NCBI GenBank assembly: GCA_033558025.1 | Contig: JAUCEF010000016.1 | Coordinates: 1,426,001-1,490,000, forward strand | Direction: 5' to 3' | DNA length: 64,000 bases | From: Phytophthora sp. 'mugwort' | Taxonomy: Eukaryota; Oomycota; Peronosporomycetes; Peronosporales; Peronosporaceae | Shown: positions 11,612 to 64,000 of the stretch, one piece after another | Layout of the letters: every line of letters begins with the position of its first letter | How positions within the stretch are numbered: position 1 is the stretch's first letter | Notes under the pieces: model-generated | The model's database searches: none | Told to the model about the DNA's origin: nothing | The model's input: the letters and a program-made list of their open reading frames with translations, nothing else | Program-made: the position numbers and the translations under genes

Positions 11612-11612
11612 G

Positions 11613-11620: not shown

Positions 11621-11623
11621 GTA

Positions 11624-11814: not shown

Positions 11815-11819
11815 ATACG

Positions 11820-15397: not shown

Positions 15398-17342
15398 ATG
15401 GAGCACGGCGAGGACGCTGCCTCGGACGTCGAAGAAGAGCACTGCGGGGCGACTGCGAGCTCAGAGGACAGCTCAGAGGATCCTGACGCTCATGTCGAGA
15501 TCGACGAAGCGGTGGCTGAGCACATTGATACGGTGCTGGATGTATAGTGCTGTGAGAAGCGCTGCATCGAGAACCGAGCAGAGGCGACGACGACGTTCCT
15601 CACCGGTTACATGAAGATGAACAGGGACTGCCAGCGAACCAGCTTGATCACAATGCTAGCAACGTGCTCTGGGCGCTCAGAGGACGGTCAACGGCACCGA
15701 TCTACAGGCGCTAGGACGCGCTATTCGTACGTCCTGCCTCTCGCTGGACCTGTCTGTCGTACAGCTTCCAGACCGTGTTCAACGTTAGCAACGACACCAT
15801 CACACGGTATGGCGTTAATACTGATTTTGTTTTGCTAAATGCAATAAGACTGAGGGGACTGTTTAGTTTCCAGGTATCATAACCAAGTGAAGAGGGGAGA
15901 GTTTGCGTTGCCTGCACACGGCAATGCTGGCAACAAGCATGCACGGTTCGTGGATGGAGAAGCGATGAAAGCGTTCTTCACGAGGTCGACCGAGACGCAT
16001 GCAGACGTTGTCCCTGTGTGCTTCCGGTACCAGAAGACGGAAAATGGGAAGCTGAATCGTCATTGCACCACTAAGGAGCATCAGTTGCTGCCTGTGTACT
16101 TTACCTGGGCCATGAAGCTCGGCTGGTACATCGAGTGGGCAGAGGACGCACGTGTTCGCTTCAAAGAGCCTTCGTTGACAGCCTTCAGGACAATTATGGA
16201 GGGCATCTGCCCCAATATCCGCATCAGCTCTACCCGAGACAACGTGTGCGACGCCTGGTGAAATATGATGGGACCTGAACCGTCCGTCGAGGACACCGAA
16301 GCTATCGCAGCTCATGTGAACGATGCGAAGGCGATAAGACGTTAATCCCTAGCTGATTGCAATGCAACTACGACAGATAAACATGGTCACCACTATCGAC
16401 TTCGCGCAGAACATTGCGCCTCCTCACTCCGCCCAGACCCCCTCGATGTGGTACTTTTTGAGCCTCATTCTAGTGTCCGTGTTTGGGATTCACACGCACC
16501 CGGACAAGTTGGAATCTGATCTATCCCGAGCGTAAAGCTAAGAAGGGCAGCACGGCGGTGATTTCGATGCTCGACACGTATGCAAGAATGCGAAACATCT
16601 ACAGCAAAGAGAAAAGATCAAAACGTGGCACGTCTACGCTGATAACTGTGGCGGACATGTCAAGAACAGCCACGTGCTGCAGTTCCTGCTGTTCTTCGTG
16701 CACACGGGCTCGTTGCAGGGCGCCAAGTTGAGCTTTTTGGTTAAAGGCCACACGAAGAATCACTGCGACCGACACTTCGGCTACATCAAACGCTACTACG
16801 CCAAGCGAGACCTTTGAATTCTCGACGATGTAGATAGGGCTGCGATGGAGTCGTCACTGCATCAACTTGGAGGACTCTGATCACTACCTTTCGAGAGTTC
16901 AAAGGCACGCTTGACGGGCTTTACCGGAAGCTGGACAGAATCCAGAGCTACCAACTCTTTGAGATGCGCGCTGAGGAGCCTGGTGTGGTGCACTGCCGTA
17001 AGCGACCAAGTGGCGATGCAGTCATTCAGGACCTGCTGAAGCGGGGTGTGGTAAAGACTTTAAGTGCTGAGGAAACTGCGGAGCTGTGGTCAAGTTTCAA
17101 GAAGTTGGCCCCCACCACCACACATAGAGAAGATCCACGACATCCACAAAAAAGTGCTACAGTATGTCCCGCCTGATCTGCGCAGTGACCCGCTCTACAT
17201 TGTTCTCAACGACCTGGCTGAAGAAGAAATAGCAGCTACGAAACGATCTCGGCGACAGAAGTCTTCGCAGGGTAAGAAGCGTGCGGCAGCGACGAAGACG
17301 GAACGTCGCAAGAGACAAACCACGGCAAGTGAGCAGCAGTAG
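15398..17342 (+). pseudogene. DUF7869-type transposase-like gene (left arm copy), broken
   Basis: The ATG at 15398 begins an acidic leader and a TAG at 15545 interrupts it. The same frame continues with CCEKRCIENRAEA, a Cys-rich N-terminus. A second block (15887-16260) has LPAHGNAG, HQLLPVYFTWAMKLGW, CPNIRISSTRDNVCDAW. A third block (about 16635-16820), in shifted frames, has YADNCGGHVKNSHVLQFLLFF and FLVKGHTKNHCDRHFGYIK. The D-N-C-G-x2-K-N and G-H-T-K-N-x2-D signatures are, from memory, those of the DUF7869 family found in large eukaryotic mobile elements. The C-terminal basic tail ends at 17342. At least five disruptions are present. The element's ends were not found. Confidence 0.65.
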
Positions 17343-18411
17343 TGTATCAGCAAATGCTAGCACCAAATTAATCAGTCTTAACGCCACAATTACGTACGGA
17401 CACCCGAATCTTGATGTGATACACCTAAATGTTTTATCAGATTTTTCAACGTATAATCCTCGTTTTGACGGTGTTCGAGCTCGATTCAAGGCAAACGGAG
17501 TGCAGAAAAAACGGATTCTACGCCTCGAGTTACACCTTATAAACCGAAGAAGCAAAACAAAATACATCTTCAAAATTGACTTCACCTGCTTCGCGACAAC
17601 CTTCGTCCTGAGCGATATAAGTGTGATCTGAAGTCGTACGATAGCTTGAAATGAAGCTAAAGGAGCGAAGCACGTCTTATACCTAATAACTCGAAACGCG
17701 CACTTAGGCGTTAAGACCGAAAATGTTTTGCGTCGTCTCAAATATTCATCGGCCCACAAAACCTCATAAAGATGATACGCCTATCAATGGATGGCGAAGC
17801 AAATGTTGATCTCCGAATTAGACAACTCCGAGTCTCTAGGGAGAACCGTGGTGCAGCCTGTCCGTATAAGCTTTTTTATCCGGCTAGTATTGGTGCTGCT
17901 GCTTACTAACGATTTATTCGTGCTCATTTGCGCCACCAGTATATACTTTTCTTTCGCCTCGCGAGCGGCTGGGTTGAGGCCAGGATATATATTTTGTCAA
18001 GCGTTTCGTCAGCAAAGTGAGTAGCACAGTATTGCGTACTAGCTGCCGGAACTCATAGGTCACTAAGTCTTGCTTGAACTGTTTTGGCTTCGCACCACCT
18101 TGAAAGCTATGCTTGGGGCGCTTTTGCGCGCCTTTTCAGCGGCAGGGTGAAATGGCGGTGTGCGAGCTGGTATTTTACCGCTGCCAGACTAGTTACAAAT
18201 TGCGAATGCCTAACCCTGTAAACATTTGATTTATTGGCAAAAATGAGTCGTCGGATATAAGATTTGCGTGTAGATACAAGTCGATTTATACGGTACCAAC
18301 CATTCATCGACCGGACGTCATTCAACAACAAAATCGAAGCAGGAGATCAACCAGAATCAAATTTACCTGCTTCACCCCACAGCGCCCCACCTCTCGCCCT
18401 TTCTGTCCTCC
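17343..18411. other. Non-coding arm sequence, possible solo LTR at about 17804-18030
   Basis: No credible gene. 17804-18030 starts TGTTGATCTCC and ends near GAGTAGCACA, with a CCAGGATATATATTTTGTCAA segment that looks like a copia-type solo LTR. No target duplication was confirmed. The long minus-strand frame at 17157-17759 has low-complexity basic content and is treated as chance. Confidence 0.35.
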
Positions 18412-19834
18412 ATGTTCTCACAAGCAGCCCGATCTACTCCATGCTCTTTACTGAAGTCGGAAATGAATTCTAAAAGTGTACCACCTGCGATAAGCAGTAC
18501 AGGAAGGGCAATGACTGCACGAACTTCGCTGAACCACCTACGACACAACCACGACAACTACGAGCAAGAGACTCAGGAGGAGTCACGACGCCAGAACCCG
18601 CTATGCCTACACCTAGCCAGCACGTGAATCGGAGACCTATACCGATGGATCAAGTGGGCCGTCTGTGGCCGCCTCCCGTTCGCGAACACCACTCTCTCTA
18701 TATTTATCTCTGGTATCTCTCAAGGGACATCGTGCTGATCTTCAAGCAACAAGAGCTTCGCGTCGATCGCGAGCTCCCATCTGCATTCGGTCTCAGTCTC
18801 GACGGCTGAACCAGCCGTAACCGCTATTACGTCGGGATATTCACAGTAGTCAACACGGTAATACCGGTAAGGGCGTCGAACGCGAGTACTACGATGACCT
18901 AGAGTGCTCGTTAAGTCGTGTTTTTACTACTGGCGTTCTCTCCGGTGGAGGTAGAGGAAAATCGGGGCGCGCAGAGTCAATAATCTGGTCGCGGACCCGT
19001 TGTCTTCTATAACAGGCCCTAGAGCACGGTCAAGTTCATGGTGGGCGACAACTTCTCGGTGAATCAGTGGCCGAAAGGAAGTGGCTATCCCCTTCATCGG
19101 ATGCGCTAGCCACGGTTTTAATCTGACGGTAAAGGACTTCTTCAAGACCGAGGACGAGCTCATTGCCGAGGTAACCGCGCTGGTGTTCAAGCTTCGAACG
19201 ATGCTGTGCTTCGCCGCATCTCCCATCTATCACCTCTGATGTGGAACGAAACATGGTGGACGAGCACATACGAAATGGTTGCGCGCTACCTGAAGTTCCA
19301 GCCAGTCGTAATCCAACTGGGCCACAGCCTTCTGGTCGAGCACGAGATTCAGCTGCTCCTGCTGCGGCGTACCGAGCGCGATCAAGTCGAAACATTGGAG
19401 AAGGACCTGGAGAAGCTCGAGGGCGTTACGAAAGAGCTACATAAGTCTACGTTAACTGTATCTTGGCGCCGTCTGTCCGGCCAGTTTGTGTGAAAGAGAG
19501 CTCAGTACTCAAATCGCGACTGACCGCGACGGCTTCGATCGTCAGCAATCCCAATTTAACAAGGTCTCGTCAAGACTCAGTGCCGAAGTATTGCTGCAGC
19601 ATTGCCAACTGACCGCTTCGACGCCCAGCACCTGACGCGATAGAGGTCGGCATGTGCCGAGTTTAGATCGACCGCTCTCGCAAGGGAGCCAGCTTCAAGG
19701 ACGTCAACAGCTCTATTTTCTAGGCGGCGTTCAAGAGAACAGAGGTGCCAAAGCGCTCGCACTATGTGGGCATTGCGTATGTCCCGCCGACATCGGACGA
19801 GTGCGAGCGCTTCTTTTCGGCGGCGAAGCTGATG
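18412..19834 (+). pseudogene. hAT transposase remnant (left arm copy)
   Basis: Broken pieces of a second, different hAT transposase. A CTTCDKQY-type zinc finger lies near 18480-18510. KFMVGDNFSVNQ is near 19035-19070, matching the conserved VGDNCSVN block. W-N-E-T-W-W-T-S-T-Y-E-M-V-A-R-Y-L is near 19240-19295. The C-terminal dimerisation motif YVPPTSDECERFFSAAKL is near 19778-19830. The reading frame changes several times. It ends abruptly at about 19834 against a Ty3 integrase in the opposite orientation, a junction present in both arms. Confidence 0.8.
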
Positions 19835-20480
19835 TGACGATGTTCGTAGGAATCCTGTGATATTTCCAAATCTGATTGACGAAGAGACGGGCGACGCCTT
19901 CGGCGGTTACTTTCCCCGTAGCCGGCGCAAAATGGCAACGCTCCGTCAGTCTGTCCGCGACGATCCAGATTGATTCCACTTCCCTTTTTGTTCTTGGAAA
20001 ATCTGCGATACCCATAGAGATCGATCGCCATCGTTCACCTGGAATCTTCAGAGGCTCCAACAGACCAGGACGCTTGGTAAGCGTCCAGCTCTGGATTGAC
20101 TTCAGCATTTCCGACTAGTACCAGCGTTGCACGACTGCTCCGTCGAGCAATTACTTTAACGCTTGATGAAGAGGCGTTGGAGGTACTCGCCAGACGTCTC
20201 ATTCGTCCTCACATTTTCGGTGCGCCGTCGAAGATGCTGAAGAAGGATTGATTGCTGTGGCTACGGCTGTTGCGATGGCTGCCGCGAAGGGTATTGTAGC
20301 CTGCTTCTAATTTGCTGATACCAGAGGATGATTGGCGGCACTACAGGGTGGCTGATACCTGGTGAGAAGGCCCACGCATGGTATCGTCGAATGGAGTTTG
20401 ATACCGGAGTAAGCTGTTTGCTTCGGAGAAGCAGCGATACCTCTTCTGATGTTGTCGCTCCGCCTTCGGTTTCACGATCA
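19835..20480 (-). pseudogene. Truncated Ty3 integrase (left arm)
   Basis: The core begins IPGERWRSISMGIADFPRTK, with the usual D of the MDFI motif changed to G in MGIA, and continues through CHFAPATGKVTAEGVARLF to YHRIPTNIVT, where it stops at the hAT junction. The second catalytic Asp and the Glu are therefore absent. The zinc-binding region is degenerate. Confidence 0.75.
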
Positions 20481-22000
20481 CAGATCACCTCTTGATTGCT
20501 GTGAATACTGATTGCGCTTCGCGATCTTTCTCATACGCTTTTTTATCTTGGTTACAAGCTCAGTATCCGTAGTCACTTCGCAGACCCCTAACGTGAATGA
20601 CGTGTCGTAGGAGCTTGTTAGGCTTAGGTAATGGAAGAACTGGCTCTCCAGTTGCAAATCTGGTATCCGGCTTAATGCGTCAGCGATTCCGTTGTTCACA
20701 CCAGGTATATGCTGAATGTTGGCTGATACTCCTCAAGGATATTGTACCATCGCGTTAGCCGACGGTTAGAAATCTTCTGAGTGAAGAGACCATCGAGACT
20801 TTTGTGATCCGTCTCGGCGATCGGTTGTTTATCCAAGCAGTAAATCCGAAAAGGTGCAAGTGCATGGACAATTGCCAAGAATTCCTGCTGCTGCGTTGGA
20901 TACTTGGCCCCAGCTGATTTCATCTTCCGACTCGAGTAAGCGATCGGCTGCTCAACTCTGTCGGCGGTTTGGAACGGGACACTCCCGACAGCAAACTTGG
21001 TAGCGTCGGTACGTAGATGCATGGGCTGGCTGAAGCCGGCAGGTGTAACACCGGTGGATTGCACAGCCGTCGCTTCATCTCGTTGAAAATCTTCGTCTGT
21101 TCTTCGTTGAAATGGATCTTCGCGCTGTGTTTGATTTTCTTCTTGAGAAGGTTGAACATGCTTGCCGTTAACGCCGCAAAGTCTGGACAGAAAGCGCTGG
21201 AAGTATCCGGTTAAACCAAGAAAGCTGTGAAGCTCTTCTTGTGTCCTTGGGACATGTCAGTCCCCGATGGTCTGCACCTTGTCCTGGTCTAGCGCGCTGT
21301 CTCGTCGCACGAAACGTGTAATCGCCTCCTCACAAAATACACACACTTTCAAAGTTTCACATACGAATTGTTGTCTCGTAACATGTTAAAATTCTTGCGG
21401 GGGGGGGGGGGGGGGGGGCATTAAAGAGAAGGTTGATCTTTGGTGACTTTGTGAAGATGTAGGTGTCGTCGGAAAACGACTATGTGTTCTCGATTCCGCG
21501 AAATAGTTTTGACGTCCATCGGTGCATCGTTTCTGGCGCGTTACAGACTCCCAAGGGCAACACCAAATACTCCCAGAGTCCGTTTGGCGACTGTAATGCG
21601 ATGAAATTGATGTCTTTTTCGCTCATCCGAACTTGGTGATACGCTGACATCAAGTCCATTGTAGAAATCAGTATGGTTCAGCCATTGCGTCAAATGTATC
21701 TTCTTTCCGGATCATTTTAATGCTCTGGTGAATTGCGTTGGAGCTCAAGTTTCGATAGTCGTGCACGATCCGCCACCGACTGGCTTCCTGGCGCAGAACG
21801 TTAGCGCAGCATGTGGGCTGATACTCGATCAGATGAGCGTTTTCTTACCATGTCAATCCAGCGCACGACCTCGCGCTGCTGCTCAGGTGACTGCCGCCGC
21901 TGTTGCCGATGCATAACAAGGCATCGATTCGATGCTCGATATCGCGCTTCGCTAGCAGACCTTCCAAGAGTTTAGGCGGAATACGCTATCCTTGTACTTC
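20478..22000 (-). pseudogene. Ty3 RT and RNase H (left arm)
   Basis: RNase H is at 20696-21064 (YPTQQQEFLAIVHALAPF, ETDHKSLDGLFTQK, RRLTRWYNILEEYQPTF), with DALSRIPDLQLE at 20640-20690. The RT connection is at 20920-21160 (FNEEQTKIFNEMKRRLCNPP). The palm at 21460-21720 keeps the active site as FSDDTYIFTK, with both Asp present, but a stop lies just before it. A 20-G run at 21399-21418 interrupts the sequence between palm and connection. Confidence 0.8.
21399..21418. repeat. G20 homopolymer, 14 in the other arm
   Basis: Twenty consecutive G bases here; the mirror site at 58153-58166 has fourteen C. The difference of six accounts exactly for the change in pairing sum from 79571 to 79565. Confidence 0.85.
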
Positions 22001-23774
22001 GTCAGCAGGGCGAAGGCGGGATTCATCCGAAACCTTTCCGAGTCCGTCTCCAAATATTGTTGATTTTCGCTGTTCAAGTGTACTCGGATTGACCGCGCCG
22101 CTGTATTGAACGTGCGACACTCTTGGACATCTCGTTCTCAGAACCAGCATAAAGTACAGCTCGTCGATCGACTTGGTCTTGCTTCTTAGAAAGTCCCACA
22201 GCTTCTTCCGCGCGGTGTACTTTGTCTGTACACCTGTCACGTCAACCACACACATCGTCAACATCTTATCCGCGACGCTGTCTTTTCTCCTCAAGTTGTG
22301 TTTATTTCATCCCCAGCGTCACATCTTGAAGATTTGCTCGGGCCTTCTCTAATTGACACTGACTCCGAAATCAACGGATCTTCTTGTTGACCTAAGACAA
22401 CGCTTGGGCATTCACTCTGCTTTGTTGTCCGAACGGGTTTGACTTACGACTTCACATCCGTTTCAAGCGCGGCATCTCGACAGAAATCGGGTCTTTTCGT
22501 CGATAGACCTTTCGCCCGGCAGATCTTCAAAGTCTGGAACCAATCCCCAGTCCGCCTTCCACGATCAGTCCGCAGGTCTTGCCTGCTCGTCCCAGCACAA
22601 AAAAAGTCTTCATTCGGATTCTTTCAAATCGTCGACTTCTCCAATCGATTTGCGACTAAATGTCCTCGAAGAACGGTTCCCCGAGGATGCCGTCGAACTC
22701 GCCAGGTATTGCATATACAATAGCGACACTGTTGTATACCTCATCCAGACCCGACACCTTGATGCAAAACGGCAGTACTTCCAGTGGCGCCTCCACAATA
22801 TGCTTGTCTCCCAGATTCACTCGGATGTATTTTCGTGGAACTTCGTTGTGCGGGCTGAGTTCCGTCTACACATCGCTTGGGCACATAGATCGTAGTAGCA
22901 CCACAGCCTAAGCATCCTCGATGTCTTTGTCATCTTGCCGGCGATGCTGATCTCACCTTTGAGCGAACAGTGGACGCGACTTATAAACGAGGGGTTTCAC
23001 AGAAAACATTAAGACCGATATTATCGAGCTTAAATGTTCCAGCTACTTTCTCGACCACGTCAGGAACCTCGTTCACTGAAGCGGCTGTTCGTTTCTCTAT
23101 TTATTTTTTTTCCTTCTCCCACGCAAAGCTGTCGGCCTTGATGTGGCCTGACTTCTTCCAGATATAGCAGATACGGCATTCAGCACGAGGAGGTTTCGAG
23201 CTTCGTTTACAGCGACTGGTGCCTCTGAAGGGTTTCCCCTTGAATGACTTCCCGTCCCTTGATTCGGTTCTGGAACGAACATCGCTTTATCACGGCGAAC
23301 CGCACGTTCACGAATGTCGCCCACAAAATTGGCTACCTCTTACTTGACAACCGAGGCCATGCCGCCCAGCGTCTCCGGGATCTCAAGATTGACATAGCTA
23401 CGGGTCCGTTGCTTGAGACCGTTAACGTACTGCAGAACTTTGCCAAACACGCTCATGCCTTTCCATCCGGAAGACGATAGCCGAGTACTCTCCGTTGTAG
23501 ATTTTAATGTCGCCGTCTGTTTTAGAGGCGCAAAAGCTTATCGCGGAGCACGGCTGGTAGTTCGACGCCTCAAAGTGTTGAGTACATGCTCGCGGAAAAT
23601 CACCGCGTGTGCTCCCCCACACGTGTCGTCGAAAACCAACGCAGAAACCAGCCCGATGCCGACTTTTCCATCGTCGACCCAGCGATTCTTGTTAGACGAA
23701 GGCTAGCGTCTTCGTTAACGATTTCGTTGATGCGGCCCTTAGCGATCAATCTGGGCTGTCACAAAAGACCTTAG
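21986..23774 (-). pseudogene. Ty3 gag-protease and linker (left arm)
   Basis: Gag fragments at 23097-23774 include EHVLNTL and FREH-like pieces and MERHERVWQ; a protease region with the family's D-x-G-A-T core is near 22890-22920 in broken frame; and the linker is at 21986-22294 (KYTARKKLWDFLRSKTKSIDE). The N-terminal third of gag is absent. Stops occur in every frame. Confidence 0.65.
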
Positions 23775-24335
23775 CGCCCAATGTCTGTCTATTTAAGTTT
23801 TTTTTTTGTAAATACAAAAGGTATTTGAAAATATGTAAAATTTCAAATTACTCTGATGCTAGATGTTAATGTGTTAATTGATAAAAATAAACTAAAAATA
23901 GACAACGTGGTTTATTTCATACTTAAAAAAATAGATTTACTTTAAACATTCTTTCAAAAAAGTTTAACATTGGAATTGTTTTAGAATTAATCAACATGCA
24001 TGAATATTCTTCTAATATGTATTTATATATTTTTCTTTTAATTAATCTGAAAAATAATATTATTTCTAGATATTTTTTAAACACAGAATTTAAAAGTTTT
24101 AATTTAACGATGTAAAACACCCCTAGTATTTAAAACATTCATTGTGAAAGTTTTATTTCTTTGAAAACCTTAAGTTTTCGAAAATATTTAGTTCTTTGAA
24201 AATCTTCGTTTTGTGGTCAAAAATTTTTCATGGGATTTTGGATTAGTAATTTTAGTTATAAAAGGTTCTGTAAAAGATACTTCTTAAAAGATACTTTTTT
24301 AATCAAAAACTTTCTTTTTAAAAAATCCCGCAATG
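23775..24335. other. AT-rich block inside the arm, possible mitochondrial insertion
   Basis: About 560 bases far richer in A+T than anything around them, with runs of TTA/AAA codons. A 65-residue minus-strand frame (23923-24120) is rich in Lys, Phe, Ile and Leu. Composition resembles oomycete mitochondrial DNA, and a definite cox1 fragment lies about 560 bp away in the right arm (54590-54690). I could not match this block to a named mitochondrial gene. The right-arm copy differs by 8 bp near 24057 (sum change 79579 to 79571). Confidence 0.4.
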
Positions 24336-24617
24336 GTCGTCTTTGCTGAACATGACAAAGAATGTCCGCGTGAAGAGAAAGGCGAGACTGATTGATATAC
24401 TTGTCAAGTCGTTCGGTTTTAAGAAGATTCGCCTGGCGGCTGTGTTTGCCGTAGCGCAAAGTTGAAGTCATGCGTTATGGCCAAAAAAATACTGCACGCA
24501 TCAGCACCGAGAATGGCGTTCCTGTCCTGATCAAAACCAAGTAGTGGATGGACTAGGACTCTTCTATTCGCTAAGTCGACTACTCGTTTCCCTTTCCGGA
24601 ACCGAACGAGGTTCTGC

Positions 24618-24619
24618 TG
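24618..24619. other. Deletion junction: 8,342 bp missing relative to right arm
   Basis: Left-arm sequence on one side of this point pairs with 46619 and below, and on the other side with 54961 and above. Only one base is shared at the join (T24618 pairs with both A46619 and A54961). The transposase reading frame continues into the extra block in the right arm and is cut here, so this arm carries a deletion rather than the other arm an insertion. Confidence 0.88.
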
Positions 24620-24912
24620 AATATTTACGGTGGCAGCTTTTGCATCAAAATTCGGGTGTGGCGTTCAAGCTTGAAGCACCATCGCGACGAGTAATTTGTT
24701 GCTGGGTGAGTGTTGCATGGAGACAGATTCCCACAACAATCATCACAGTTCGGTATCGTAAGTGCCAGATTGCTCTACCCGCAGAACTCATGATGGACAG
24801 CGTCATTAAGCGGCTCGACGAGCTAGGGCTCGTCGACAGCAGTGTCGGCAAGATCCGTGTGGAGAGAGATTTCGACCGAGAAGACTTCATTGTTGACGAG
24901 GTCGTTGTATAA
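24619..24912 (+). pseudogene. 3' end of pogo/jerky transposase cut by the deletion
   Basis: The C-terminal 98 residues, from EYLRWQLLHQNSGVAFKLEAP through RRVICCWVSVAW and KCQIALPAELM to the acidic end DFIVDEVVV, are identical to the right-arm transposase at 46325-46618. The upstream 300-plus codons, including HTH and DDE parts, are absent. Confidence 0.85.
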
Positions 24913-25506
24913 TGTTGCACAAAATAAAATCATTTTCAGTCGAGAAGTACCGTAAGTACAGGACGTCGTATGTTAGATGGAGTGGAGTGCCAAATTTCGT
25001 GCACGTCGTGTGTATATCATAACAAATAATAATCAGTATTTGTCAGCAGGGAATAGCGTGCCACAATATGACAGAGGCGACGCCATTGGCTGCGGGCTTA
25101 AGATCAGTTAAGTTATCTGAGGCGGGCGAAACCGTGAGGTTCGAATACGTTTTAGGGAGAAGTGCAGGTTTCCATCTTCAAACCCGGACATCGAGAAACA
25201 CAGTTTCACGAAATGTAACTTTGCAGCTTACCGCCAAAAACAGTCAGCACTTGTCTTCTAAAACGACGAGCTTAGGCAACGATTTCTTCAAACGAGACAT
25301 CAGCTCTACATGTATTGTAGGGTCGCACAACGGATCCACAGCTTCCACCAACCTGTATGGATATCGATGATGGCCCTCAAGGTACGTCAGCTTCTACTGG
25401 AGCCCCCTGCACCGTGCAATAACTCCGTTTCAAGCTTACAGAAATAGTACTAACATGTAGTACACTTTACCTTTTTTCGAGCTCATGCATCGACTGTTGA
25501 AAATGG
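24913..25506. other. Non-coding, one unrecognised 100-codon frame
   Basis: A plus-strand frame at 25068-25370 (rich in Ser and Thr, no membrane segment or motif) is identical in both arms, but the arms are too similar for that to show selection. The region probably includes the 3' end of the pogo/jerky element. No TIR was found for it. Confidence 0.35.
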
Positions 25507-27556: not shown

Positions 27557-28061
27557 CACGGATAGGTTTGACGCCCCTTTGACTTTGTCCTGTAACGCTG
27601 TGTTGTACTTGCCACAATATTCATCCAACGAATCTCATTTCGGTTATCGCTTGCGTCATCGGCGGTCGGATGTGGACCGCAGACATTGTTTTTGCAACAC
27701 GGAACTTTAATATAATGCAAGCATAACTTGATGGGCTGTTCTGGTGGCACCAGCGAGATATTGAGCGAGTAGGAGTGACACACAAGCTCTCGGCGCGATT
27801 CACCGAAAAATGCGAACTATTTGGTAGCAAAGCGTTCTGCTTCCCACCCATTGCGGCAATCTAAAGACGGACACCAGGCGTGCTCCTCGGTGAAAACAGT
27901 ACTTCTAGTTAGCAGTACTATCAGAGCGACAAACGCGAAATACTAATCCCTACAAAACTTGTTTAGCTACTACGGTAGTAGTATCTGTACTATATACGTT
28001 TACGTACTGACGACGAGTTCATGTATCCCAGAGCCTTATCCGTGATAACAGATATACCCCC
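27557..28061. other. Stretch between two transposons, unresolved minus-strand frame
   Basis: A minus-strand ATG at 27851 opens a 76-residue frame; a second frame beginning at 27783 overlaps it and runs into the pogo terminus. One may be a small gene interrupted by the pogo insertion, but no domain is recognisable. Confidence 0.3.
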
Positions 28062-51840: not shown

Positions 51841-52389
51841 TTGTCAACGATACACAGTTAAGGACAAGAAGAATGTCGCAACGGAGGCGAAGAAAGCTAC
51901 GCTAGGAGAATCTCTCGCAAGTAGAAGATCAATCGAAAATGCATCCGCACTTGGGTCGCCCTCGCAGATTACTGGGTTTTGGAGGAAAAATAGATCCTGA
52001 ACGTTACCGTATCGCTGGTGGCGGACACCCCGTGGCCTGGGAGGAACTATCTCCTCCTCTAACCCATCTGAGATGCGCGGCGCATGCATCGCCGCGTAGC
52101 TCGAACCAGGTTCGTCGACATGGCGGCCAAGATCCTCCATACCGTGGACAAACCGACCGATCTTAAGCTGCCCAACGGGTGGCTTGAATGTCTCCTTCGC
52201 CGCTACAACCTTGTGATTCACAAGGCCGCCAACAAGCCGAAGCAGATTCCAGCGGCGATCACCAACAGCGGCGAAAACTTTATCAAGTATTCGGAAGCTC
52301 ATCAAATGAAGCACTTGGCGGCGACCCGGGTCGACAAAGCAACCCGGGTGTCAAATATTACCTATCTCTGTACTTTGCCACTGGAGTGA
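51841..52389 (+). pseudogene. N-terminal fragment of a pogo-like transposase
   Basis: About 51900-51990 encodes RRSIENASALGSPSQITGFW-like psq sequence. In another frame 52090-52290 encodes FVDMAAKILHTVDKPTDLKLPN, then GWLECLLRRYNLVIH, a CENP-B-type HTH. No catalytic part follows; it ends against a DUF7869-type gene on the other strand. The opposite 156-residue frame is a shadow. Confidence 0.5.
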
Positions 52390-52479
52390 CTCCACCACTG
52401 GATAACCCTAGCGCGACTCGACCGCTTGAAGAAATACGGGATGGATGTGTGCGTTGGTCCCGCGCTTTTAAGCTTACGG

Positions 52480-54410
52480 GCGGCCTACTGTACCTGCCTT
52501 TTCGATGGGTCTCAATGCCAGGTACCAGCTTGCGTTTCGAGCTGGGTTCAAGCTCGCCGTCATCGTGCGAAATTTTCTCCAAGCGGGACTGATAGCCTCG
52601 GCCGCCTTCGGTATGGTAGGGTAGTACTGCAAGTACGGTGCCGGCATCAAGAAGTACTTGAGCGACAACAACTTGAACCTCTTCATCGTCAGCTCCATCG
52701 TATGATGGCGTTGGAGCTGCACATCACGTATCGTGGCTGTGCCAAGCGCAAAATCACCAAAAGGTCCCACAGGAACGCACAGCGAATCACCGCTGGGTTG
52801 TCATCACTGATGAGCGCGTGACGCGCGACTGTGTCCTCATTGGTTGTCACCAGGTGGCGCGTTCCAGCGACATCACTGTCGATTCCGAAGAAGTAGTTGG
52901 CGATGCAGCCAAAAAGCATGCTTTTGAAGTACTTCGAGAGTAACGCGCTACAGCCGCATAAGAGTGGACGGTCGTCAGCCTGGTGATTAAGGAACTCGGC
53001 GCAGACTGCCGTGGTCTCGTTCATTCGTAGCTCTGGGCTGTACAGGTCTGCCAAGACCATTAGGTGCGGCACCAGGCCACGACACGATCGGTTGCGTTGT
53101 GGGAAAATACTTGACATCGGTACAGCAGCACCACTTTCTTGTAAAAGACGGTGGACAGTATCGCGTAGATCATGAAGACTGCACGGGACTTGTTTTGTTC
53201 AACGCAGTTATCGCCAGTCCGAACTGGAGATATCGGTCTCGAAGGCGAAGTTGGTACAGAAGCCGCAATCGTAGAGTATGTCGGCTCCTTTGCCTTGACC
53301 GTGCTCACCGTAGAGTAGGACGTGGTTGAGAATGCTAGTGCGTCGGCAATCACAAAATTCCGCATCATGAGGTTTGATTTGAAGTTGTCGGCCGGCAGCC
53401 GCTGTACAGATGCAGCAGGAAGCTGCCGCCAAACTCCTCAATCGGTATCTGCAGGAGCAGCAAATCACTGTGGTAAACAGGATCGCCCCTCAACGGCACC
53501 TCGGCGTGGCCAGGAACGATACGGTCTGGCAATCGTTGCTGCGCGCGTGAGTTACGGCGTAATTCCTAATGAAGGTAGACATCGCGCGTCGTTGGTTGAT
53601 TGCTGCTTCGAGATGCATAGTTTTTCCTGCCTCGAGCAGGTGGCGCTCGTCTTCGGCCAAACTGCAGCCTTCGAGCGCGATCACGATGCGAAGGCACGCG
53701 TCACATAGGTCCTCTTTCGTCCTGGCTAGACGGACTTACGGGAAGTTCAAGTACGCGCTCTAGGTCCATCGCTTGTATTCCATAGCGCGCCGGTTAAGCG
53801 ACTATGTCTTCGTACAATACCGCTGCCAGAGCATCTTCCACGCCACGCGGAGCTCGATGAGGTAATACCGCTCTTGGCAGTGAGAACAAGAAAAACCTCC
53901 CTCGATCTCCCACGATTGGCAAGTAGTCATGAAGAAGGTCATGCCTGCGTCGGTCAGCGAGTGCTTAGGGCGGACCGGGTCGAGGCGTGTGGAGGGTGTC
54001 CACGCCCTCCTTGATTATCAGCTTTAGGCGAGCGATCGTGGAGCCGCCGAAAATGGCGCGGATCTGGCCGTCAGGAAAGACATTGGCGGATCAGCTGAGC
54101 GCCATAACTTCGACCTTAGTGTGCTCGCTTCCACCTCATATTGAGTCTAGGAATCTACATATTGCTTGTAGTTGGCCACGACGACCTTCCCGGCGTCGCG
54201 TAAGAATGCTCGATTACCGTCGGTCCGTTCGATCGTGGCCTCTGCTTGGTTGGAGTGGTTTGGTCCGAGCCTCCGATTCCGCTAGACCGACGACGGTAAG
54301 TGTTTGATCGCTGGACTTGCAGCTCATCGAAATGAAAGGACTGTGCAAGAGTTGAAGGGTCCGAGTGAGCGCTGACCTGGCTGATCATAATGGAGGCGGC
54401 CCGTTGGGTC
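52480..54410 (-). pseudogene. Second DUF7869-type transposase-like gene, broken
   Basis: Minus strand. An early segment has a C-x2-C pair in GGFSCSHCQERYYL (about 53905-53860) and CLRIVIALEGCSLAEDERHLL with HLEAAINQRRAM (53690-53570). The core has HVLLYGEHGQGKGADILYDCG (about 53330-53270), then DNCVEQNKSRAVFMIYAILS (53205-53145), F-S-H-N-x2-D-R-V-V-A-W-C-R (about 53105-53060), NYFFGIDSDVAGTRHLV and a closing LLSLKYFLMPAPYLQYYP (52660-52605). D-N-C-x-E-Q-N-K-S and H-x3-D correspond to the signature seen at 15398-17342, but this is a distinct subfamily. Frames change at least four times. Confidence 0.55.
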
Positions 54411-54514
54411 TAAGAGAATAATTGTCTCGCTGAGGGACTGGGATTTGCGACGACCCTGGTCGTCGCCAAGTGCTTCAAATAATACAACATCGAACCCAAG
54501 AACGCCACCAGCTT

Positions 54515-54690
54515 CGACTTATTATTTTTTATTTAAAAGTCTACCTTTTAATTCAGAATAATTAGTATTATGACAATATTGAATCAATTAAAGTTTTAGC
54601 TTCCAAAACAATGTATTTGGTTATTTAGGTATGGCTTATGCAATGTTATCTATAGGTTTATTAGTTTCTATTGTTTGGGCACATTAGACA
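54515..54690 (+). other. Nuclear insertion of mitochondrial DNA: cox1 fragment
   Basis: A sharply AT-rich 175-bp stretch. About 54613-54684 encodes VFGYLGMAYAMLSIGL, then IVWAH, matching the conserved cytochrome c oxidase subunit I segment F-G-Y-L-G-M-V-Y-A-M-L-S-I-G before the H-H-M-F motif. The reading stops at TAG where the next His would be. It is flanked by nuclear transposon sequence on both sides, so it is a transferred fragment and not functional. Confidence 0.82.
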
Positions 54691-54734
54691 AGGCATTTTC
54701 GATTTTGAGTAGCCTTCGCGAACGTCCCCCCCCC

Positions 54735-54873
54735 TCTCTTGCCAGCGAACTTGGGCAGGTTGGCCTCCATAACCGCCGTACATCTGCTTTATATTAAATC
54801 CGCTAACTATACTATAATTGAGTGGTTCTAGACCTCCTTCCTATTGGCTGCAACCATAGCCAATCTGTTTACA
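54735..54873 (+). repeat. LTR relic related to the 5066-11814 element
   Basis: CCGCCGTACATCTGCTTTAT and the following ATTGGCTGC...ATAGCCAATCTGTTTACA align with the end of the LTR at 5160-5258. Its orientation is opposite to the Ty3 genes that follow at 55797, so it is not that element's 5' LTR. Confidence 0.65.
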
Positions 54874-54961
54874 CCCGGGACGACCGCGTACGGAATCTTG
54901 CGGATCTGCATCTGCACCTTGGCCTTCAAGGTGATGCGACTCGGCATTGTGACAAAAACGA

Positions 54962-55248
54962 GCAGAACCTCGTTCGGTTCCGGAAAGGGAAACGAGTAGT
55001 CGACTTAGCGAATAGAAGAGTCCTAGTCCATCTACTACTTGGTTTTGATCAGGACAGGAACGCCATTCTCGGTGCTGATGCGTGCAGTATTTTTTTGGCC
55101 ATAACGCATGACTTCAACTTTGCGCTACGGCAAACACAGCCGCCAGGCGAATCTTCTTAAAACCGAACGACTTGACAAGTATATCAATCAGTCTCGCCTT
55201 TCTCTTCACGCGGACATTCTTTGTCATGTTCAGCAAAGACGACCATTG
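54962..55248. other. Arm sequence shared with 24331-24617, no gene recognised
   Basis: First right-arm sequence after the unique block that pairs with the left arm again. An open plus-strand frame (54822-55160) crosses the block edge but has no recognisable domain. Confidence 0.4.
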
Positions 55249-55796
55249 CGGGATTTTTTAAAAAGAAAGTTTTTGATTAAAAAAGTATCTTTTAAGAAGT
55301 ATCTTTTACAGAACCTTTTATAACTAAAATTACTAATCCAAAATCCCATGAAAAATTTTTGACCACAAAACGAAGATTTTCAAAGAACTAAATATTTTCG
55401 AAAACTTAAGGTTTTCAAAGAAATAAAACTTTCACAATGAATGTTTTAAATACTAGGGGTGTTTTACATCGTTAAATTAAAACTTTTAAATTCTGTGTTT
55501 AAAAAATATCTAAAAAATTTTCAGATTAATTAAAAGAAAAATATATAAATACATATTAGAAGAATATTCATGCATGTTGATTAATTCTAAAACAATTCCA
55601 ATGTTAAACTTTTTTGAAAGAATGTTTAAAGTAAATCTATTTTTTTAAGTATGAAATAAACCACGTTGTCTATTTTTAGTTTATTTTTATCAATTAACAC
55701 ATTAACATCTAGCATCAGAGTAATTTGAAATTTTACATATTTTCAAATACCTTTTGTATTTACAAAAAAAAAACTTAAATAGACAGACATTGGGCG
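55249..55796. other. AT-rich block (right arm copy)
   Basis: Mirror of 23775-24335, 8 bp shorter near 55515. See that entry. Confidence 0.4.
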
Positions 55797-58700
55797 CTAA
55801 GGTCTTTTGTGACAGCCCAGATTGATCGCTAAGGGCCGCATCAACGAAATCGTTAACGAAGACGCTAGCCTTCGTCTAACAAGAATCGCTGGGTCGACGA
55901 TGGAAAAGTCGGCATCGGGCTGGTTTCTGCGTTGGTTTTCGACGACACGTGTGGGGGAGCACACGCGGTGATTTTCCGCGAGCATGTACTCAACACTTTG
56001 AGGCGTCGAACTACCAGCCGTGCTCCGCGATAAGCTTTTGCGCCTCTAAAACAGACGGCGACATTAAAATCTACAACGGAGAGTACTCGGCTATCGTCTT
56101 CCGGATGGAAAGGCATGAGCGTGTTTGGCAAAGTTCTGCAGTACGTTAACGGTCTCAAGCAACGGACCCGTAGCTATGTCAATCTTGAGATCCCGGAGAC
56201 GCTGGGCGGCATGGCCTCGGTTGTCAAGTAAGAGGTAGCCAATTTTGTGGGCGACATTCGTGAACGTGCGGTTCGCCGTGATAAAGCGATGTTCGTTCCA
56301 GAACCGAATCAAGGGACGGGAAGTCATTCAAGGGGAAACCCTTCAGAGGCACCAGTCGCTGTAAACGAAGCTCGAAACCTCCTCGTGCTGAATGCCGTAT
56401 CTGCTATATCTGGAAGAAGTCAGGCCACATCAAGGCCGACAGCTTTGCGTGGGAGAAGGAAAAAAAATAAATAGAGAAACGAACAGCCGCTTCAGTGAAC
56501 GAGGTTCCTGACGTGGTCGAGAAAGTAGCTGGAACATTTAAGCTCGATAATATCGGTCTTAATGTTTTCTGTGAAACCCCTCGTTTATAAGTCGCGTCCA
56601 CTGTTCGCTCAAAGGTGAGATCAGCATCGCCGGCAAGATGACAAAGACATCGAGGATGCTTAGGCTGTGGTGCTACTACGATCTATGTGCCCAAGCGATG
56701 TGTAGACGGAACTCAGCCCGCACAACGAAGTTCCACGAAAATACATCCGAGTGAATCTGGGAGACAAGCATATTGTGGAGGCGCCACTGGAAGTACTGCC
56801 GTTTTGCATCAAGGTGTCGGGTCTGGATGAGGTATACAACAGTGTCGCTATTGTATATGCAATACCTGGCGAGTTCGACGGCATCCTCGGGGAACCGTTC
56901 TTCGAGGACATTTAGTCGCAAATCGATTGGAGAAGTCGACGATTTGAAAGAATCCGAATGAAGACTTTTTTTGTGCTGGGACGAGCAGGCAAGACCTGCG
57001 GACTGATCGTGGAAGGCGGACTGGGGATTGGTTCCAGACTTTGAAGATCTGCCGGGCGAAAGGTCTATCGACGAAAAGACCCGATTTCTGTCGAGATGCC
57101 GCGCTTGAAACGGATGTGAAGTCGTAAGTCAAACCCGTTCGGACAACAAAGCAGAGTGAATGCCCAAGCGTTGTCTTAGGTCAACAAGAAGATCCGTTGA
57201 TTTCGGAGTCAGTGTCAATTAGAGAAGGCCCGAGCAAATCTTCAAGATGTGACGCTGGGGATGAAATAAACACAACTTGAGGAGAAAAGACAGCGTCGCG
57301 GATAAGATGTTGACGATGTGTGTGGTTGACGTGACAGGTGTACAGACAAAGTACACCGCGCGGAAGAAGCTGTGGGACTTTCTAAGAAGCAAGACCAAGT
57401 CGATCGACGAGCTGTACTTTATGCTGGTTCTGAGAACGAGATGTCCAAGAGTGTCGCACGTTCAATACAGCGGCGCGGTCAATCCGAGTACACTTGAACA
57501 GCGAAAATCAACAATATTTGGAGACGGACTCGGAAAGGTTTCGGATGAATCCCGCCTTCGCCCTGCTGACGAAGTACAAGGATAGCGTATTCCGCCTAAA
57601 CTCTTGGAAGGTCTGCTAGCGAAGCGCGATATCGAGCATCGAATCGATGCCTTGTTATGCATCGGCAACAGCGGCGGCAGTCACCTGAGCAGCAGCGCGA
57701 GGTCGTGCGCTGGATTGACATGGTAAGAAAACGCTCATCTGATCGAGTATCAGCCCACATGCTGCGCTAACGTTCTGCGCCAGGAAGCCAGTCGGTGGCG
57801 GATCGTGCACGACTATCGAAACTTGAGCTCCAACGCAATTCACCAGAGCATTAAAATGATCCGGAAAGAAGATACATTTGACGCAATGGCTGAACCATAC
57901 TGATTTCTACAATGGACTTGATGTCAGCGTATCACCAAGTTCGGATGAGCGAAAAAGACATCAATTTCATCGCATTACAGTCGCCAAACGGACTCTGGGA
58001 GTATTTGGTGTTGCCCTTGGGAGTCTGTAACGCGCCAGAAACGATGCACCGATGGACGTCAAAACTATTTCGCGGAATCGAGAACACATAGTCGTTTTCC
58101 GACGACACCTACATCTTCACAAAGTCACCAAAGATCAACCTTCTCTTTAATGCCCCCCCCCCCCCCGCAAGAATTTTAACATGTTACGAGACAACAATTC
58201 GTATGTGAAACTTTGAAAGTGTGTGTATTTTGTGAGGAGGCGATTACACGTTTCGTGCGACGAGACAGCGCGCTAGACCAGGACAAGGTGCAGACCATCG
58301 GGGACTGACATGTCCCAAGGACACAAGAAGAGCTTCACAGCTTTCTTGGTTTAACCGGATACTTCCAGCGCTTTCTGTCCAGACTTTGCGGCGTTAACGG
58401 CAAGCATGTTCAACCTTCTCAAGAAGAAAATCAAACACAGCGCGAAGATCCATTTCAACGAAGAACAGACGAAGATTTTCAACGAGATGAAGCGACGGCT
58501 GTGCAATCCACCGGTGTTACACCTGCCGGCTTCAGCCAGCCCATGCATCTACGTACCGACGCTACCAAGTTTGCTGTCGGGAGTGTCCCGTTCCAAACCG
58601 CCGACAGAGTTGAGCAGCCGATCGCTTACTCGAGTCGGAAGATGAAATCAGCTGGGGCCAAGTATCCAACGCAGCAGCAGGAATTCTTGGCAATTGTCCA

Positions 58701-59731
58701 TGCACTTGCACCTTTTCGGATTTACTGCTTGGATAAACAACCGATCGCCGAGACGGATCACAAAAGTCTCGATGGTCTCTTCACTCAGAAGATTTCTAAC
58801 CGTCGGCTAACGCGATGGTACAATATCCTTGAGGAGTATCAGCCAACATTCAGCATATACCTGGTGTGAACAACGGAATCGCTGATGCATTAAGCCGGAT
58901 ACCAGATTTGCAACTGGAGAGCCAGTTCTTCCATTACCTAAGCGTAACAAGCTCCTACGACACGTCATTCACGTTAGGGGTCTGCGAAGTGACTACGGAT
59001 ACTGAGCTTGTAACCAAGATAAAAAAGCGTATGAGAAAGATCGCGAAGCGCAATCAGTATTCACAGCAATCAAGAGGTGATCTGTGATCGTGAAACCGAA
59101 GGCGGAGCGACAACATCAGAAGAAGTATCGCTGCTTCTCCGAAGCAAACAGCTTACTCCGGTATCAAACTCCATTCGACGATACCATGCGTGGACCTTCT
59201 CACCAGGTATCAGCCACCCTGTAGTGCCGCCAATCATCCTCTGGTATCAGCAAATTAGAAGCAGGCTACAATACCCTTCGCGGCAGCCATCGCAACAGCC
59301 GTAGCCACAGCAATCAATCCTTCTTCAGCATCTTCGACGGCGCACCGAAAATGTGAGGACGAATGAGACGTCTGGCGAGTACCTCCAACGCCTCTTCATC
59401 AAGCGTTAAAGTAATTGCTCGACGGAGCAGTCGTGCAACCCTGGTACTAGTCGGAAATGTTGAAGTCAATCCAGAGCTGGACGCTTACCAAGCGTCCTGG
59501 TCTGTTGGAGCCTCTGAAGATTCCAGGTGAACGATGGCGATCGATCTCTATGGGTATCGCAGATTTTCCAAGAACAAAAAGGGAAGTGGAATCAATCTGG
59601 ATCGTCGCGGACAGACTGACGGAGCGTTGCCATTTTGCGCCGGCTACGGGGAAAGTAACCGCCGAAGGCGTCGCCCGTCTCTTCGTCAATCAGATTTGGA
59701 AATATCACAGGATTCCTACGAACATCGTCAC
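55797..59731 (+). mobile_element. Ty3/gypsy element truncated at both ends (right arm copy)
   Basis: Mirror of 19835-23774. Gag fragments are at 55860-56470, protease at about 56650-56900, linker at 57277-57585, RT at 57655-58640 (FSDDTYIFTK near 58093-58122 with a stop just before it), RNase H at 58501-58869 and integrase at 59457-59731, cut by the hAT remnant. A 14-C run is at 58153-58166. Confidence 0.85.
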
Positions 59732-61153
59732 ATCAGCTTCGCCGCCGAAAAGAAGCGCTCGCACTCGTCCGATGTCGGCGGGACATACGCAATGCCCACA
59801 TAGTGCGAGCGCTTTGGCACCTCTGTTCTCTTGAACGCCGCCTAGAAAATAGAGCTGTTGACGTCCTTGAAGCTGGCTCCCTTGCGAGAGCGGTCGATCT
59901 AAACTCGGCACATGCCGACCTCTATCGCGTCAGGTGCTGGGCGTCGAAGCGGTCAGTTGGCAATGCTGCAGCAATACTTCGGCACTGAGTCTTGACGAGA
60001 CCTTGTTAAATTGGGATTGCTGACGATCGAAGCCGTCGCGGTCAGTCGCGATTTGAGTACTGAGCTCTCTTTCACACAAACTGGCCGGACAGACGGCGCC
60101 AAGATACAGTTAACGTAGACTTATGTAGCTCTTTCGTAACGCCCTCGAGCTTCTCCAGGTCCTTCTCCAATGTTTCGACTTGATCGCGCTCGGTACGCCG
60201 CAGCAGGAGCAGCTGAATCTCGTGCTCGACCAGAAGGCTGTGGCCCAGTTGGATTACGACTGGCTGGAACTTCAGGTAGCGCGCAACCATTTCGTATGTG
60301 CTCGTCCACCATGTTTCGTTCCACATCAGAGGTGATAGATGGGAGATGCGGCGAAGCACAGCATCGTTCGAAGCTTGAACACCAGCGCGGTTACCTCGGC
60401 AATGAGCTCGTCCTCGGTCTTGAAGAAGTCCTTTACCGTCAGATTAAAACCGTGGCTAGCGCATCCGATGAAGGGGATAGCCACTTCCTTTCGGCCACTG
60501 ATTCACCGAGAAGTTGTCGCCCACCATGAACTTGACCGTGCTCTAGGGCCTGTTATAGAAGACAACGGGTCCGCGACCAGATTATTGACTCTGCGCGCCC
60601 CGATTTTCCTCTACCTCCACCGGAGAGAACGCCAGTAGTAAAAACACGACTTAACGAGCACTCTAGGTCATCGTAGTACTCGCGTTCGACGCCCTTACCG
60701 GTATTACCGTGTTGACTACTGTGAATATCCCGACGTAATAGCGGTTACGGCTGGTTCAGCCGTCGAGACTGAGACCGAATCAGATGGGAGCTCGCGATCG
60801 ACGCGAAGCTCTTGTTGCTTGAAGATCAGCACGATGTCCCTTGAGAGATACCAGAGATAAATATAGAGAGAGTGGTGTTCGCGAACGGGAGGCGGCCACA
60901 GACGGCCCACTTGATCCATCGGTATAGGTCTCCGATTCACGTGCTGGCTAGGTGTAGGCATAGCGGGTTCTGGCGTCGTGACTCCTCCTGAGTCTCTTGC
61001 TCGTAGTTGTCGTGGTTGTGTCGTAGGTGGTTCAGCGAAGTTCGTGCAGTCATTGCCCTTCCTGTACTGCTTATCGCAGGTGGTACACTTTTAGAATTCA
61101 TTTCCGACTTCAGTAAAGAGCATGGAGTAGATCGGGCTGCTTGTGAGAACATG
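59732..61153 (-). pseudogene. hAT transposase remnant (right arm copy)
   Basis: Mirror of 18412-19834, with the same zinc-finger, VGDNFSVN and ECERFFSAAKL pieces. A one-base difference near 60780 changes the downstream frame relative to the left arm. Confidence 0.8.
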
Positions 61154-62221
61154 GAGGACAGAAAGGGCGAGAGGTGGGGCGCTGTGGGGTGAAGCAGGTA
61201 AATTTGATTCTGGTTGATCTCCTGCTTCGATTTTGTTGTTGAATGACGTCCGGTCGATGAATGGTTGGTACCGTATAAATCGACTTGTATCTACACGCAA
61301 ATCTTATATCCGACGACTCATTTTTGCCAATAAATCAAATGTTTACAGGGTTAGGCATTCGCAATTTGTAACTAGTCTGGCAGCGGTAAAATACCAGCTC
61401 GCACACCGCCATTTCACCCTGCCGCTGAAAAGGCGCGCAAAAGCGCCCCAAGCATAGCTTTCAAGGTGGTGCGAAGCCAAAACAGTTCAAGCAAGACTTA
61501 GTGACCTATGAGTTCCGGCAGCTAGTACGCAATACTGTGCTACTCACTTTGCTGACGAAACGCTTGACAAAATATATATCCTGGCCTCAACCCAGCCGCT
61601 CGCGAGGCGAAAGAAAAGTATATACTGGTGGCGCAAATGAGCACGAATAAATCGTTAGTAAGCAGCAGCACCAATACTAGCCGGATAAAAAAGCTTATAC
61701 GGACAGGCTGCACCACGGTTCTCCCTAGAGACTCGGAGTTGTCTAATTCGGAGATCAACATTTGCTTCGCCATCCATTGATAGGCGTATCATCTTTATGA
61801 GGTTTTGTGGGCCGATGAATATTTGAGACGACGCAAAACATTTTCGGTCTTAACGCCTAAGTGCGCGTTTCGAGTTATTAGGTATAAGACGTGCTTCGCT
61901 CCTTTAGCTTCATTTCAAGCTATCGTACGACTTCAGATCACACTTATATCGCTCAGGACGAAGGTTGTCGCGAAGCAGGTGAAGTCAATTTTGAAAATGT
62001 ATTTTGTTTTGCTTCTTCGGTTTATAAGGTGTAACTCGAGGCGTAGAATCCGTTTTTTCTGCACTCCGTTTGCCTTGAATCGAGCTCGAACACCGTCAAA
62101 ACGAGGATTATACGTTGAAAAATCTGATAAAACATTTAGGTGTATCACATCAAGATTCGGGTGTCCGTACGTAATTGTGGCGTTAAGACTGATTAATTTG
62201 CTGCTAGCATTTGCTGGTACA
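61154..62221. other. Non-coding arm sequence (right arm copy)
   Basis: Mirror of 17343-18411, including the possible solo LTR at about 61534-61760. Confidence 0.35.
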
Positions 62222-64000
62222 CTACTGCTGCTCACTTGCCGTGGTTTGTCTCTTGCGACGTTCCGTCTTCGTCGCTGCCGCACGCTTCTTACCCTGCGAA
62301 GACTTCTGTCGCCGAGATCGTTTCGTAGCTGTTATTTCTTCTTCATCCAGGTCGTTGAGAACAATGTAGAGCGGGTCACTGCGCAGATCAGGCGGGACAT
62401 ACTGCAGCACCTTTTTGTGGATGTCGTGGATCTTCTCTATGTTTGGTGGTGGGGGGCAACTTTTTGAAACTTGACCACAGCTCCGCAGTTTCCTCAGCAC
62501 TTAAAGTCTTTACCACACCCCGCTTCAGCAGGTCCTGAATGACTGCATCGCCACTTGGTCGCTTACGGCAGTGCACCACACCAGGCTCCTCAGCGCGCAT
62601 CTCAAAGAGTTGGTAGCTCTGGATTCTGTCCAGCTTCCGGTAAAGCCCGTCAAGCGTGCCTTTGAACTCTCGAAAGGTAGTGATCAGAGTCCTCCAAGTT
62701 GATGCAGTGACGACTCCATCGCAGCCCTATCTACATCGTCGAGAATTCAAAGGTCTCGCTTGGCGTAGTAGCGTTTGATGTAGCCGAAGTGTCGGTCGCA
62801 GTGATTCTTCGTGTGGCCTTTAACCAAAAAGCTCAACTTGGCGCTCTGCAACGAGCCCGTGTGCACGAATAACAGCAGGAACTGCAGCACGTGGCTGTTC
62901 TAGACATGCCCGCCACAGTTATCAGCGTAGACGTGCCACGTTTTGATCTTTTCTCTTTGCTGTAGATGTTTCGCATTCTTGCATACGTGTCGAGCATCGA
63001 AATCACCTCCGTGCTGCCCTTCTTAGCTTTACGCTCGGGATAGATCAGATTCCAACTTGTCCGGGTGCGTGTGAATCCCAAACACGGACACCAAAATGAG
63101 GCTCAAAAAGTACCACATCGAGGGGGTCTGGGCGGAGTGAGGAGGCGCAATGTTCTGCGCGAAGTCGATAGTGGTGACCATGTTTATCTGTCGTAGTTGC
63201 ATTGCAATCAGCTAGGGATTAACGTCTTATCGCCTTCGCATCGTTCACATGAGCTGCGATAGCTTCGGTGTCCTCGACGGACGGTTCAGGTCCCATCATA
63301 TTTCACCAGGCGTCGCACACGTTGTCTCGGGTAGAGCTGATGCGGATATTGGGGCAGATGCCCTCCATAATTGTCCTGAAGGCTGTCAACGAAGGCTCTT
63401 TGAAGCGAACACGTGCGTCCTCTGCCCACTCGATGTACCAGCCGAGCTTCATGGCCCAGGTAAAGTACACAGGCAGCAACTGATGCTCCTTAGTGGTGCA
63501 ATGACGATTCAGCTTCCCATTTTCCGTCTTCTGGTACCGGAAGCACACAGGGACAACGTCTGCATGCGTCTCGGTCGACCTCGTGAAGAACGCTTTCATC
63601 GCTTCTCCATCCACGAACCGTGCATGCTTGTTGCCAGCATTGCCGTGTGCAGGCAACGCAAACTCTCCCCTCTTCACTTGGTTATGATACCTGGAAACTA
63701 AACAGTCCCCTCAGTCTTATTGCATTTAGCAAAACAAAATCAGTATTAACGCCGTACCGTGTGATGGTGTCGTTGCTAACGTTGAACACGGTCTGGAAGC
63801 TGTACGACAGACAGGTCCAGCGAGAGGCAGGACGTACGAATAGCGCGTCCTAGCGCCTGTAGATCGGTGCCGTTGACCGTCCTCTGAGCGCCCAGAGCAC
63901 GTTGCTAGCATTGTGATCAAGCTGGTTCGCTGGCAGTCCCTGTTCATCTTCATGTAACCGGTGAGGAACGTCGTCGTCGCCTCTGCTCGGTTCTCGATGC
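62222..64000 (-). pseudogene. DUF7869-type transposase-like gene (right arm copy, cut by window end)
   Basis: Mirror of 15564-17342. The acidic leader lies beyond the window. It carries the same D-N-C-G-x2-K-N and G-H-T-K-N signatures; a one-base difference near 62456 alters the frame around the C-terminal segment. Confidence 0.65.

Follow-up and report, generated by a model that had tools for sequence, protein, structure and literature searches.

The window analysed here is a stretch of 64,000 nucleotides from Phytophthora sp. 'mugwort' (contig JAUCEF010000016.1, here C16, positions 1426001-1490000). It carries a long inverted repeat that is likely to be a genuine inverted segmental duplication, in which about 39,000 bases would have been copied once together with a spacer and placed in reverse beside the original. 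C16 is a contig of 4.36 Mb and the duplication sits 1.46 Mb inside it. Comparisons were made within a region of 184 kb, consisting of the window and twelve adjoining 10-kb stretches, and with the genome of 86.3 Mb in 154 contigs. Positions are given in window coordinates; negative values and values above 64000 fall in the flanks. Self-comparison of the window with its flanks revealed that the segments, read 5' to 3', follow the order X–A–S–A'–S–Y, where X and Y are the flanks, A is the left arm, S is the spacer and A' is the right arm; the second S is called S2. The left arm lies on the forward strand at -4623..34225 (1..34225 within the window) and starts at C16:1421378. It is followed by the spacer at 34226..36978, also on the forward strand, and then by the right arm on the reverse strand at 36979..74502 (36979..64000 within the window), which ends at C16:1500502. 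Beyond the window S is found again at 74502..77249, in direct orientation and 98.4% identical to the first copy, and therefore the structure is not a simple palindrome.

A preliminary description of this DNA had reported an inverted repeat with arms of at least 18.7 kb, an outer limit outside the window, a spacer of 2.75 kb and an 8.3-kb block present on one side. The repeat is indeed present in the assembly: BLASTN of the window against itself returned two minus-strand matches, 24618-34225 with 46619-36979 (9,645 columns, 99.46% identity) and 15564-24618 with 64000-54961 (9,055 columns, 99.54%). The spacer measures 2,753 bp and the block, at 46620-54960, is 8,341 bp long and occurs in the right arm only. 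With the flanks included, the outer limits fall at -4623 (left) and 74502 (right). Position 15564, which had been given as the left start, does belong to the repeat, but as a limit of the arm it had to be abandoned, being the mate of the last base of the window. The arms consist of five collinear blocks with a total of 26,447 aligned bp (in A, -4623..-1612, 4366..5258, 11621..14579, 14581..24618 and 24619..34225). Four large differences set them apart: -1611..4365 and 5259..11620 are found in A only, 64984..67865 and 46620..54960 in A' only. A chance origin of the similarity is excluded. For 25700-31700, 47 matches in the genome were listed, with 40 of the 47 candidates scored, and identity above 90% was confined to the two arms. 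With two long opposed arms of high identity in the assembly, the element would belong with the large inverted segmental duplications. No similarity between X and Y was seen at E 1e-10 in the parts fetched.

From the letters at the borders, the ancestral order looks to be X–A–S–Y, with S|A' and A'|S as the sole new joins, because A|S and S|Y are each crossed by repeats, and X|A by a PX–BAR frame that is intact. The A|S border (34225..34226) is crossed by a repeat copy on contig C7 (3734804-3735061, then 3735062-3736516), and S|Y by matching repeat copies on C5 and C6. The X|A border falls at codon 441 of an open frame of 584 residues (-5943..-4192), in which Pfam recognises PX at 145-225 and Vps5/BAR at 281-491; the border is therefore inside a domain. 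At the far end of A' the same frame is truncated to a remnant of 153 residues with no Pfam match. In the genome the X|A stretch matches only itself and the other arm (2 of 2). The old age of X|A is thus argued from the intact domain and that of A|S and S|Y from repeat copies elsewhere. The two new junctions are almost bare. At S|A' (36978..36979, J1) there is 0 bp of homology and no inserted base, and at A'|S (74502, J2) there is 1 bp, a single C that suits either side. Both sides of the ancestral A|S border are used again at these junctions: the first base of A' is the complement of base 34225 and the first base of S2 is 34226 or 34227. It follows that one break would have supplied both ends, since independent switch points so close together would be rare.

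Three breaks give the simplest account of this arrangement and probably the correct one. One chromatid would be broken at S|Y, and a second chromatid or a homologue at both A|S and X|A. The S|Y and A|S breaks would come first, separated by 2,753 bp, and head-to-head fusion of the ends on the X side would give X–A–S–A'. This product would break anew at the far end of A', at X|A, and the free A' end would be ligated to the S–Y piece left from the A|S break, thus producing X–A–S–A'–S–Y. Block deletions, recombination between long terminal repeats (LTRs) and probable arm-to-arm conversion would follow. The segment order, the old borders, the junctions, the common break point and the recombinant solo LTR described below are read from the sequence itself; the order of these steps, end joining as the pathway and the partner, whether sister chromatid or homologue, are what we propose.

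Template switching with run-off is a near-equivalent rival, although we consider it improbable. A fork would halt at A|S, jump to the distal end of A and copy A as far as the broken A|S end, where it would run off and then be joined to the end of S. Such a course requires only two new junctions, and the shared point 34225|34226 would reflect a single broken template. Switching of this kind commonly relies on microhomology of a few bases, whereas 0 and 1 bp are found here. Tandem duplication of A–S followed by an independent inversion of the second copy of A would give the same content and copy number, since A–S–A–S holds each segment twice. It is very improbable: a breakpoint of the inversion would have to coincide with the junction left by the duplication, and A has no flanking inverted repeats. 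Recombination between inverted repeats at either end of A was also considered and rejected, as none of note were found there. A search for inverted homology linking the two ends of A gave nothing notable, the best match being of 12-32 bp with E of at least 0.98.

The three-break account is read from a single assembly of one genome, which weighs against taking the duplication as real, and an error of assembly has to be considered. Besides a recent event and gene conversion, the preliminary description had raised the possibility that two haplotypes were joined head to head. In its plain form this does not fit, as such a join predicts S and then a reversed S. What is found is A' directly after S, S2 in direct orientation, defined arm ends and unrelated flanks; the direct second S after A' rules out a plain palindrome and a plain haplotype join alike. 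A more elaborate artefact would be a heterozygous diploid in which A of haplotype 2 was placed in reverse between S of haplotype 1 and S–Y of haplotype 2. Block divergence of 0.1-5% and the long hemizygous stretches are what alleles could show, and S, 25700-31700 and the X|A stretch each lack a second haplotype among the matches reported elsewhere in the genome. Some small contigs carry a mitochondrial-like stretch both ways, which may mean that the assembly contains fold-back contigs. On the other hand both joins lack overlap and N. Errors of scaffolding usually show as a gap, and joins without overlap would require chimeric reads. C16 carries telomere repeats at either end (CCCTAAA 105 times within the first 10 kb and TTTAGGG 117 times within the last 10 kb) and no N was counted in the 184 kb; these are therefore evidence against a haplotype join. 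On balance we regard the artefact as rather improbable.

Under the duplication reading, it is likely that each arm lost different blocks afterwards by deletion and by LTR–LTR recombination. A has probably lost the 8.3-kb block by deletion at 24618|24619, because a repeat element at 46196-48107 crosses the block edge and A holds one end of it only (24619-25042). The element matches C11 without a break. Insertion of the block into A' was rejected on account of the same edge-spanning repeat with its single end in A. A Ty3-like LTR element with 194-bp LTRs occupies 5065..11814 in A, and a solo LTR stands in A' at 70622-70814, with ATAC on both sides of each. Its assignment comes from Pfam, with Ty3_capsid and SH3_Tf2-1 above the curated cut-off and an integrase core just under it. 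Of 16 variable columns in the solo LTR, 4 agree with the 5' LTR (columns 3-53), 9 agree with the 3' LTR (columns 56-184) and 3 are private. The switch from 5' to 3' letters falls between columns 53 and 56, and therefore LTR–LTR recombination took place after the duplication. The left-only block of 5.98 kb (-1611..4365, of which 1..4365 is in the window) was considered as one insertion and rejected: it holds a repeat at 109-2807 as well as other sequence, and its printed borders have no evident target-site duplication. The right-only block of 2.88 kb (64984..67865) contains an element with 27-bp inverted ends, which a solo LTR some 350 bp long splits in two; on C7 the site is uninterrupted. Insertion of a single transposon does not explain this block, since flanks of 347 and 455 bp are also present, which have no match among the 48 listed. 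Because these flanks are unmatched, the letters make deletion from A the likelier origin.

The arms are not equally alike along their length, and this has a bearing on whether they still exchange sequence. Per block, in order, they differ by 0.17%, 4.07%, 0.41%, 0.29% and 0.11%, and the two copies of S differ by 1.24% (34 of 2,746 positions). When the LTRs are left out the arms differ at 76 of 26,121 positions, significantly less than S (p 3e-10); when 4366-5064 is also left out they differ at 51 of 25,422 positions (Fisher p 1.4e-13). A two-rate model, which assigns 20 differences to 24,721 bp (0.081%) and 56 to ten islands of 1,400 bp in total (4%), is better than one rate by 80 units of the Bayesian information criterion. 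Outside the 4366 block no arm stretch of 2,746 bp holds more than 20 differences, which is below the count in S. Both copies of S have changed about equally. With C7 and C5 as outgroups, 17 changes fall on the first copy and 14 on the second, and 3 could not be assigned; with C6 as outgroup for the second half of S the numbers are 7, 5 and 4. Since most of the arm sequence differs by 0.08% and the S copies by 1.24%, arm-to-arm gene conversion is suggested and has probably kept most of the arms alike. In terms of a gene-converting palindrome, the arms are more alike than non-inverted copies that are presumably of the same age. It was also observed that 40 of 76 differences lie within 500 bp of block edges where 13.7 were expected, which fits conversion that works poorly next to unpaired blocks. 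The earlier suggestion that conversion keeps the arms alike thus gains support from the mosaic divergence of the arms and from the significantly higher divergence of S, short of proof.

Several observations weigh against conversion as the full explanation. When 4366-5064 is omitted the edge excess shrinks to 15 of 51 differences within 500 bp (8.0 expected, p 0.01), and within 1,000 bp it is not significant (20 of 51, 16.1 expected, p 0.15). The differences in S are themselves clumped at 250 bp, a degree reached by 39 of 2,000 shuffles (416 of 2,000 at 500 bp), and six of the ten islands consist of two substitutions each. Two alleles would give similar blocks of high and low divergence. One island of 465 bp (4366..4830) differs by 5.4% between the arms, far above the divergence of S, so that conversion alone is insufficient; this island may be the product of error-prone repair beside the 5.98-kb deletion. 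Ectopic copying was rejected as its source, as the first 699 bp match the two arms only, among 42 matches. The ratio of transitions to transversions is 18:2 in the low-rate part and 39:17 in the islands, which is not a significant difference (p 0.08).

The 8.3-kb block of A' carries a frame of 272 residues on the reverse strand (50455..51270) with the SAE2/CtIP C-terminal domain (PF08573), the sole match to this family reported in the genome. SAE2/CtIP is a hairpin-processing factor, and in yeast deletion of SAE2 raises the frequency of inverted duplications, thought to arise via hairpins (PMC3974649). A bolder and doubtful reading is that a breakage-fusion-bridge cycle repaired itself inside the chromosome. 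One double-strand break would have kept both of its ends to the base, one end fusing to a sister chromatid while the second end was attached to the tip of the inverted arm thus formed. The rearrangement may then bear on the SAE2/CtIP gene that guards against events of its own kind, with one copy since lost and the arms still converting. The presence of the only SAE2-like match inside such a duplication is probably a coincidence, because neither junction has homology of the hairpin type.

Other features of the region may be recorded here. The 8.3-kb block also holds Nramp-like fragments on the forward strand (48224..49320, with Pfam matches at 48224-48574 and 48895-49320), again in A' only, and a papain-like protease frame of 512 residues is open in both arms. 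An 80-bp stretch at 54605-54684, which we take to resemble part of cox1, has counterparts at 94% identity on many small contigs; in five of these contigs the first 10 kb are AT-rich (19-26% GC). The stretch is likely to be a nuclear insertion of mitochondrial DNA. Contigs C19, C45 and C48 carry the 80-bp mitochondrial-like match in both orientations, about 41-44 kb apart, and are either inverted mitochondrial arrangements or fold-back contigs. The repeat at 109-2807 has a relative on C18 that harbours another inverted repeat (C18:3717501-3723000), with arms of at least 2,341 bp, 99.7% identity and a 661-bp spacer, whose left limit may fall outside that interval. The Y flank has an inverted pair of its own (109349-111258 and 114167-116085, about 1.9 kb each, 94% identical, 2.9 kb apart) and two adjacent long frames (L010:8744-9997 and L011:3571-7428), each matching START and FYVE, the FYVE of the first being under the curated cut-off. 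Domain combinations in the compared region include START with FYVE and an OCRL-like phosphatase with RhoGAP; like the TTTAGGG telomere repeat, they suggest an oomycete. Neither RNA families nor tRNAs were detected at threshold.

Every border is preserved in this interstitial example, which allows the breaks to be located with single-base precision and the subsequent decay of each arm to be put in order. The direct S copies provide an internal clock for the inverted arms, by which the rate and reach of conversion can be tested in strains or relatives. Users of this genome should note that the SAE2/CtIP and PX–BAR frames are whole on one side only.

Several known systems invite comparison. Human fold-back inverted duplications (PMC3907307) share an uninverted spacer of a few kilobases, breakage, fusion and a second break; their spacers range from 766 to 70,466 bp with a median of 3,428, against 2,753 bp here. 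They are accompanied by loss or rearrangement of the far side, whereas here the spacer is duplicated and the far side is intact. The single-copy spacer and the loss, translocation or ring beyond the inverted arm that define that class are replaced by a duplicated S followed by Y. The inverted microhomology, repeat or insertion expected between spacer and inverted arm is likewise absent from J1, with 0 bp and no insert. Duplication–inverted triplication–duplication (DUP-TRP/INV-DUP) events and origin-dependent inverted-repeat amplification (ODIRA) also create a local inverted copy with junctions of often little or no homology (PMC10766186), but the inverted triplication there follows a 1-2-3-2-1 pattern, while A and S occur twice each here; S and 25700-31700 have two near-identical genome copies each, with no triplicated inverted middle. 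The human Y palindrome P6 (PMC3723533) has long inverted arms, an unrelated spacer and kilobase conversion tracts, and its arms are more than 99.9% alike; here large blocks are confined to one arm or the other, the shared remainder diverges as a mosaic, and conversion is suggested from one genome. In Zymoseptoria tritici, another filamentous plant-associated microbe, a large palindrome and sister-chromatid fusion are described for accessory chromosomes (PMC3681731); the fusion was attributed to inverted-repeat recombination near a chromosome end, unlike the interstitial joins without homology described here. Phytophthora sojae offers recent segmental duplications in an oomycete (PMC11139960), which are described as cross-chromosome and near telomeres rather than local, inverted and interstitial. 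A 4.3-kb inversion without inverted duplication is described in PMC9584435, and among the titles and opening parts of abstracts searched no large nuclear inverted duplication in an oomycete was described. The present example belongs to a known kind of chromosome accident and can be read with unusual clarity.
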